In this document: one piece after another, positions 60,942-62,462 of the stretch
How the letters are laid out: the number at the start of each line of letters is the position of its first letter
Position numbering within the stretch: the stretch's first letter is position 1
Assembly: GCA_018713205.1 (NCBI GenBank)
Contig: DVFN01000094.1
Location: 1 to 64,000 of the forward strand
DNA from: Candidatus Avoscillospira stercorigallinarum
GTDB lineage: Bacteria > Bacillota > Clostridia > Oscillospirales > Oscillospiraceae
Direction: 5' to 3'
DNA: 64,000 nt
Program-made: the position numbers and the translations under genes
Notes under the pieces: generated by a model
Databases searched by the model: none
Seen by the model: the letters and a program-made list of their open reading frames with translations, nothing else
What the model was told of the DNA's origin: nothing

Positions 60942-60999
60942 CCCCGGGCGGAACGCCGCGGCCGGATACGGTGATCTCGCCCTGGGCAGGGATATCCCA

Positions 61000-61028
61000 T
61001 TGACAGGGCGAGCGTCTTCTGCTATAAT
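61000..61028 (+). promoter_or_regulatory. perfect consensus sigma-A promoter
   Basis: TTGACA-N17-TATAAT. Confidence 0.9.
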
Positions 61029-61065
61029 AACGCTATTCTATATCCTGGAAGGAGTCTGTTTCCAC

Positions 61066-61131
61066 ATGGAACCCGACGACGGTAATCCCTACAGTCCCAT
61101 ATGGAATGATACGAAGACATATCTGCGCTGA
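61066..61131 (+). CDS. 21-aa leader peptide MEPDDGNPYSPIWNDTKTYLR
   Basis: AAGGAG RBS 11 nt upstream of ATG; lies between consensus promoter and attenuator hairpin. Confidence 0.65.
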   Translation: MEPDDGNPYSPIWNDTKTYLR

Positions 61132-61163
61132 GAGGACGCAGGTGTGTCTTCTTGCGCTTTTTT
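61114..61163 (+). promoter_or_regulatory. transcription attenuator: mutually exclusive terminator / anti-terminator
   Basis: terminator GCGC-tg-AGAGGAC/GTCTTCT-t-GCGC-TTTTTT; alternative AAGACA/TGTCTT plus CTGCG/CGCAG. Confidence 0.7.
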
Positions 61164-61199
61164 CGGGAACTTATTTTGCTTGGAGGATACATAGAAATT

Positions 61200-62462
61200 A
61201 TGGACAGTGACAGTTTACGGGACATTCTGATTATGGCAGTCTTGATTCTGATGTCTGCCTACTTCTCCGCCACCGAAACCGCCTTTTCATCCCTCAATAA
61301 AACCCGGCTCAAGACCAGAGCCGAAAAGGGGAGCCGCCGGGCCGCCGTCACGCTGAAGCTGGCCGAAGACTACGACAGGCTGCTCTCCACCATTCTCATC
61401 GGCAACAATATTGTCAATATCGCCACGGCCTCCATCGGTACGCTGCTTTTCGTCCGCCATTACGGCGACCTGGGCGCGACCCTCTCCACCATTGTGGTCA
61501 CCGTGGTCGTGCTGATCTTCGGCGAGATTACGCCCAAGAGCCTGGCCAAGGACAGCCCGGAGCGCTTCGCCATGTTCTCCACGCCCTTCCTGCATGTACT
61601 GATCGTGGTGCTAACGCCGGTCAATTGGCTCTTTACCCAGTGGAAAAAGCTCGTGTCCCTGATCTTCCGGGTCAAGGAAGACCGCCGCCTGACCCAGGAT
61701 GAACTGCTGGTGCTGGTGGACGAGGTAGCCCAGGACGGCGGTATCGACGCAGACGAATCCGAGCTGCTGCGCAGTGCCATCGAGTTCACCGACCGGGACG
61801 CCGAGGATATTCTGACGCACCGGGTGGATCTGGAAGCCGTGCCCGCCACCGCCACCAAGGAAGAGGTGGCCCAGGTTTTCTCCGCCTCTCGTTTTTCCAG
61901 AATTCTGGTCTATGAGGAGAGCATCGACAATATTGTCGGCATTATCCACCAGAAGGATCTCTACGACGGCGCCGGCCTGGTCGAGAAACCCCTCTCCGAG
62001 ATCATGACCGCCCCGCTGTTCGTCACCAAATCCATCAAGATCAGCGACCTGCTGAAGCTGCTGCAAAAGTCCAAGAGCCATATCGCCGTGGTCAGCGATG
62101 AATACGGCGGCACCCTGGGCATCGTCACCATGGAGGATATCCTTGAAGAGCTGGTGGGCGAGATCTGGGATGAACACGACGAGGTCATCGAGGACTTCCG
62201 CAAGGTCGGCGAGGACACCTACCGGGTCTCCTGCAACGTGGACCTGGATAAGATGTCCCGGTTCTTCGATGTGGAGTGCGAGGCCGACTGTACCACCGTC
62301 AGCGGCTGGGTCATGGAACAGCTGGGCCGCATTCCCAACGAGGGCGACACCTTTACCTGGGAGAACCTGGACGTCACCGTCACCGACACCGACTACCGCC
62401 GGGTCCTGGAGATCGAGGTCCACTGCCGTCCCAAGGAAGAAAAAGACGAGGAAGAAGATTGA
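61200..62462 (+). CDS. CNNM/CorC(HlyC)-family transporter with CBS pair
   Basis: [68 protein letters not shown] domains; CorC/HlyC C-term. Confidence 0.95.

Follow-up and report, generated by a model that had tools for sequence, protein, structure and literature searches.

The window, which is the whole 64,000-nucleotide stretch of DNA that was analysed, contains a gene of 420 codons for a transporter of the CNNM/CorC family; relatives of its product with known structures include CorC efflux proteins and CNNM4. The gene begins 68 nt 3' of a small leader ORF whose product starts with MEPDDGNP, and this ORF is preceded by a promoter and a Shine-Dalgarno (SD) sequence and runs into two overlapping hairpins (Table 1). 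An initial annotation of this DNA had proposed the promoter, the ribosome-binding site, the 21-codon ORF and both hairpins, and all of them were found in place when the sequence was checked and, for the hairpins, folded. The anatomy observed at positions 61000-61200 is real.

Table 1. Features of the leader region and the CNNM gene, in coordinates of the window.
Feature	Position	Strand	Basis
Sigma-70-type promoter: TTGACA (-35, 61000-61005), 17-nt spacer, TATAAT (-10, 61023-61028), TG before the -10	61000..61028	+	12/12 consensus match
Leader Shine-Dalgarno GGAAGGAG	61047..61054	+	sequence; SD aligned in relatives; 11 nt before ATG
Leader ORF MEPDDGNPYSPIWNDTKTYLR (21 codons; ATG at 61066, TGA stop at 61129-61131), acidic/Pro start	61066..61131	+	start, SD and residue-2 Asp/Glu kept in relatives
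Hairpin 1 ('alternative' hairpin of the initial annotation): 61113-61127 with 61137-61151, 15 perfect pairs; conserved; in relatives followed directly 3' by a U-tract, as the predicted intrinsic terminator of the family	61113..61151	+	-24.4 kcal/mol; covariation
Hairpin 2 ('terminator' of the initial annotation): 61125-61128 and 61131-61137 with 61146-61152 and 61154-61157; overlaps hairpin 1, mutually exclusive with it; T6 directly 3' (61158-61163)	61125..61157	+	-19.7 kcal/mol here; genome-specific
Interrupted U-tract TTCTTGCGCTTTTTT (TTTTTGCGC... in genus siblings)	61149..61163	+	sequence
RBS of the CNNM gene, GGAGGA	61182..61187	+	sequence
CNNM/CorC-family transporter gene	61200..62462	+	domains CNNM, 2 CBS, CorC_HlyC; Pfam PF01595 (1.3e-51), PF00571, PF03471

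Regions upstream of 110 CNNM loci from public genomes were collected with rules blind to the peptide sequence, giving 105 non-redundant regions, and an ORF preceded by an SD sequence was present in 80 of them. The alignment upstream of CNNM orthologues, which the initial annotation had recommended as a check, bore out its acidic leader: the second residue was Asp or Glu in 65 of these 80 ORFs, compared with 19.5 expected (maximum 29 in 200 shuffles). Codons 2-9 of the same ORFs encoded a mean of 2.5 acidic residues, against 0.75 ± 0.09 after shuffling, and a net acidic excess of at least 2 within residues 2-11 was found in 62 of 74 leaders; such leaders are predicted to have the acidic/Pro type of start that destabilises the ribosome. 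A promoter with at least 9/12 consensus positions was located no more than 110 nt upstream in 56 of the 74 leaders of relatives. A small ORF with its own SD sequence between promoter and gene thus appears to be kept in the orthologues, and its translation is predicted.

The leader peptides fell into several types, namely MDSDSSD/MDSDDG/MEADDG (including that of the window), MDSCGSTDGGNPDN, MDEDGYP and MDEPPR/VDEPPPS, and the conserved trait is an acidic or Asp-Pro start and not a single peptide. The spacing between the SD sequence and the ATG was unusually long, about 11-14 nt, in the window (61054-61066) as in the aligned leaders, and this held across leader types whose peptides differ. CNNM paralogues at 34-42% identity were mostly devoid of a leader, showing that it is not universal. 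As a negative control these paralogues served only in part; the genome-wide model described below later found the leader before other distant CNNM genes.

In 54 of the 74 acidic leaders the leader start was followed by a hairpin that folds at -14 kcal/mol or lower and has a U-tract, against 3.4 expected (maximum 7 in 20 shuffles), and it began at a median of 57.5 nt 3' of the leader start codon. Among the 42 sequences with the main type of helix (GGCATATCTGCG...CGCAGGTATGCC-TTTTTGCG), changes on both sides were seen at 9 of 12 pairs, and the same 42 hairpins contained 51 compensatory (double-change) cells compared with 21 after shuffling, while slid controls collapsed. Because the U-tract lies directly 3' of hairpin 1 in relatives, hairpin 1 is taken to be the terminator of the family. 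A covariation-backed hairpin and U-tract separate leader and gene, with the U-tract interrupted in this genome.

In all 54 cases with a strong hairpin the stop codon of the leader was located at most 8 nt before the hairpin (5 cases), inside it (26) or behind it (23), and never far upstream, whereas the other two reading frames remained free of stops over this distance in no more than 37 and 27 of the 54. The end of the ORF is accordingly placed on the hairpin arm in every one of the 54 cases, which agrees with the proposal of the initial annotation that the 5' arm of its alternative hairpin lies within the last leader codons. This arm was read in all three frames (22/10/6) and it is therefore its RNA, not its peptide, that is conserved. 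The leader end is kept as RNA and as a stop-codon site, and the leader start as a peptide.

No other conserved helix was found upstream of the terminator in relatives, and the element would therefore contain neither an aptamer nor a conserved antiterminator. A riboswitch, with an RNA aptamer that overlaps an ORF present only by chance, had been considered because of a strong codon preference in leader codons 2-12 (Ser AGT 60%, Arg CGA 74%), which hinted at a constraint on the nucleotides. However, the genes downstream show the AGT bias in their first codons too, and for this reason it looks like a gene-start effect. Start codons also varied among the leaders (ATG 60, GTG 9 and TTG 5) although the ORF always reached the hairpin, and Rfam gave no aptamer match in the window, with no significant one at 60950-61250, M-box included. 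The aptamer idea was rejected on the codon and helix evidence, and we regard a riboswitch as scarcely credible. Stop codons in the -1 frame, as a cause of the AGT codons, were likewise set aside; Asp codons prefer GAC.

D, S, N, G and P are abundant in the leaders, as would be expected if shortage of Asp, Ser, Asn or Pro stalled the ribosome at the corresponding codons in classical amino-acid attenuation, and the overlap between the end of the leader ORF and the terminator hairpin is shared with trp/his-type and antibiotic-inducible leader attenuators. The leaders described here differ from these by the acidic N-terminus, by the ion-transporter targets and by having neither a run of cognate codons nor a conserved antiterminator. 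The enriched residue shifts from lineage to lineage (DSDSSD, DEPPP, DSCGSTDGGNPDN, DADSSDADRS) whereas the start stays acidic, so that no single amino acid provides the codon run, and the targets are cation transporters and not genes for the biosynthesis or uptake of an amino acid. Amino-acid attenuation is, in our opinion, very improbable.

A covariance model of the leader plus hairpin (R2), which used no gene information, was applied to 396 genomes from the order and to 392 from the class, and matches at reporting thresholds were obtained in 92 and 26 of them, respectively. In the inspected set, composed of the 68 best distinct matches in the order (E about 1e-5 or better), 66 precede cation transporters (55 CNNM genes and 11 Ca-type P-type ATPases) and two precede other genes. 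The CNNM targets include about two dozen distant paralogues with 24-38% identity. R2 had been trained on 36 leaders of CNNM orthologues but on just a single distant CNNM and a single P-type leader, and the distant-CNNM and P-type classes were therefore largely found afresh. The leader of the P-type ATPases (11 of the 68 best matches) is MDDADSSDADRS, and these targets score best against the Ca PMR1/SERCA models, below the cut-offs of those models. One weaker R2 match precedes MgtE. These matches support a predicted regulon of divalent-cation transporters.

Ca-type (PMR1/SERCA-like) P-type ATPase genes with MDDADSSDADRS or a relative of it, and the same type of hairpin, were seen at loci L198, L207-L212, L216-L218, L227, L258 and L286. 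Strong R2 matches before non-CNNM genes were located at L238 and L243, one before an AI-2E-like permease (with the leader-like start MYHDGAGPADSKK) and one before an unclear ORF. A model of the hairpin only (R1) found mostly ordinary terminators below its top matches and was replaced by R2. A search for the MDEPP pattern gave matches in 11 genomes, the recognisable type-B ones being at CNNM genes; the match in the genome of the window (contig C58) seems to belong to a longer coding sequence.

We consider the best explanation, with a confidence a little better than even, to be a ribosome-mediated attenuator in which completion of the leader gives readthrough into the CNNM gene and the signal is chiefly Mg2+. 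RNA polymerase would start at 61000-61028, and the last codons of the leader form the 5' arm of the intrinsic-terminator hairpin. Geometry and folding suggest that a leader ribosome stopping or dropping off early would leave the hairpin free, and transcription of the CNNM gene would tend to end, while a ribosome that has reached the leader end would cover the 5' arm, no terminator would form and the gene would be transcribed. The signal would most likely be the cytosolic supply of divalent cations, chiefly Mg2+, with drop-off and little exporter at low Mg2+, and completion and much exporter at high Mg2+. We infer the drop-off at low Mg2+ because acidic/Pro N-terminal nascent chains destabilise enterobacterial ribosomes under that condition, and switching on at ample Mg2+ fits because CNNM proteins are implicated in Mg2+ efflux. 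The simplest polarity for the whole family, as modelled, would be readthrough on completion of the leader, opposite to that of mgtL/mgtA. Among the points that count against this explanation are that in many Firmicutes transcription can outrun translation, that the CNNM paralogues mentioned above mostly lack the leader, and that MgtE, being an importer, should be regulated in the other direction and has leaders which are less acidic and share no terminator.

The polarity is least certain in the genome of the window, because of its interrupted U-tract. Compared with relatives, one G-C pair of hairpin 1 is replaced by A-T and the U-tract changes from TTTTTGCGC to TTCTTGCGC, followed by T6; here the hairpin-1 terminator may be weak, or hairpin 2 with the T6 may stand in for it. 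Both hairpins fold better than local chance (200 shuffles each), none of the shuffled sequences folding as well as hairpin 1 and one equalling the -19.7 kcal/mol of hairpin 2, and the element is placed beyond chance by the comparative evidence, i.e. conservation and covariation. When a ribosome footprint was masked at each leader codon in turn, hairpin 1 formed for codons 1-12, hairpin 2 only with the ribosome at codons 13-17 (partially at 16-17), and neither hairpin from codon 18 on, including a ribosome at the stop codon.

The formation of hairpin 2 with a ribosome at codons 13-17, together with the mutually exclusive hairpins, the T6 behind hairpin 2 and the interrupted U-tract of hairpin 1, speaks for a two-hairpin switch with the polarity of mgtL: early drop-off at low Mg2+ would allow 61113-61151 to act as antiterminator, with the gene on, whereas a ribosome close to the end of the ORF would allow 61125-61157 to terminate, with the gene off. 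A ribosome at the stop codon, however, leaves neither structure. Covariation of the hairpin-2 helix was sought in relatives and none was found (64.0% of cells paired, compared with 64.3% in shuffles), and the homologous stretches of three genus siblings reach only -6 to -10 kcal/mol, hairpin 1 being directly followed by T5 in them. We judge such a switch unlikely. Hairpin 2 was rejected as a family-wide terminator and is local to this genome. Of the covarying hairpins expected by the initial annotation, hairpin 1 covaries and hairpin 2 does not, and the roles it had assigned seem to be largely swapped: its antiterminator is the conserved, covarying helix with U5 after it in relatives, and its terminator is the one that shows no covariation and is unstable in the siblings.

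The attenuator that we favour could also respond to a signal other than Mg2+ itself, the leader ribosome controlling the terminator according to general translation capacity (the status of ribosomes, ABC-F proteins or elongation factors) or to Ca or Mn. One of the targets is a P-type ATPase of the Ca (PMR1/SERCA) type and not a Mg pump, and because of this a non-Mg divalent cation is a possible signal; ribosome destabilisation, moreover, responds to several factors, e.g. EttA (PMC11282234). On the other hand, Mg2+ is the theme common to CNNM and MgtE, and at MgtE genes this type of leader is exchanged for the M-box or combined with it. We give a signal of this kind a rather low probability.

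A related leader, MDAGSSxG...GRS, stands before many MgtE genes of the order; it is less acidic and has no obvious common terminator. In the genome of the window, the MgtE gene (contig C12, locus L336) has the leader MDADRSSGTEAGRRPLASRRDAPL, with its ATG 130 nt before the MgtE start, and an M-box Mg riboswitch (RF00380, 87.6 bits) 5' of the leader ORF. The M-box was present at 3 of 20 other MgtE loci, two of these three being without the leader. Pairing of GGAAGT in the MgtE leader with ACTTCC near the mgtE RBS was considered as a switch for the importer and dropped, not exceeding shuffles at most loci (mean 6.6 compared with 5.8). The M-box (ykoK) resembles the CNNM leader as attenuation control of Firmicutes Mg transporters, but it is aptamer-based, and the CNNM leader has neither an M-box nor a conserved aptamer.

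One of the known systems close to this element is MgtL of enterobacterial mgtA, a leader that is likewise very short, begins with acidic residues and Pro (MEPDP) and precedes a gene for Mg transport; the progress of the ribosome on it decides on transcription of the gene, as is proposed here. The EPDP of MgtL causes the ribosome to drop off at low Mg, and mgtL, which works through a Rho-dependent terminator, induces an importer when Mg is low (PMC11282234). The leader of the window differs in having an intrinsic terminator that overlaps the leader end, a CNNM (efflux family) target in place of mgtA (a Mg P-type ATPase), Clostridia as hosts and a reversed predicted polarity; the likeness lies in the peptide start and the arrangement and is not a demonstrated sequence homology. 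The initial annotation had put forward a translated acidic/Pro leader with MgtL-like chemistry controlling a terminator before a CNNM gene, and the conservation of the leader, found in dozens of genera, argues for this.

The small ORF MgtQ, which lies between mgtC and mgtB of Salmonella, likewise has early acidic residues (2 and 5 are required) that destabilise translation and set the expression of a Mg transporter, but MgtQ acts on translation of mgtB by alternative stem-loops that free the RBS, without an intrinsic terminator (PMC8092293). YoaL/yoaE(mgpA) and the CorC N-terminus of Salmonella and E. coli concern CorC-domain efflux genes induced by high Mg, for which a leader or an IRD start has been proposed as the sensor: in Salmonella, high Mg raises corC and mgpA, and the CorC N-terminus is a ribosome-destabilising sequence (PMC12421838). 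YoaL differs in that it overlaps the upstream region of its gene, its role being a hypothesis, and no terminator-overlapping leader has been described there. In S. aureus the main factor for Mg export is the CNNM protein MpfA (PMC6711546).

No Rfam family matched a leader of this kind, and none was found for Clostridia or Firmicutes in the open-licence literature. Leader attenuation and ribosome-destabilising leaders are already known in principle; what is new is the combination, the hosts, the targets and the likely polarity, and the element probably represents a widespread, undescribed magnesium-responsive switch across many genera. As a more tentative extension, to which we give slightly less than even chances, the acid-start leaders of Clostridia would form one family of translation-based sensors of divalent cations (Mg2+) that coordinate exporters (CNNM and the Ca-type P-type ATPase, on at leader completion) with the MgtE importer; the RNA architecture that follows the leader would determine the sign of the response. 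The family would then be an exporter-side, intrinsic-terminator counterpart of MgtL with an independent origin.

To our knowledge, how Gram-positive bacteria sense an excess of Mg2+ and induce CNNM-type efflux is largely open, and we know of Mg sensing through the stability of the translating ribosome only for enterobacterial importers so far. A conserved leader-terminator element would extend this kind of sensing to gut Clostridia and to the export side. Its sequences are short and testable, and reporter constructs that include about 200 nt of the upstream DNA would be expected to follow Mg status.

The CNNM genes at many loci (61200-61220 in the window) begin with MDSDS or MDSAS and use AGT codons as the leaders do. 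By analogy with what is reported for CorC, the start of the CNNM gene itself may be ribosome-destabilising. Finally, GGCTTCGTCACTGA, located between the terminator and the CNNM gene, is common to L002, L084 and L085.
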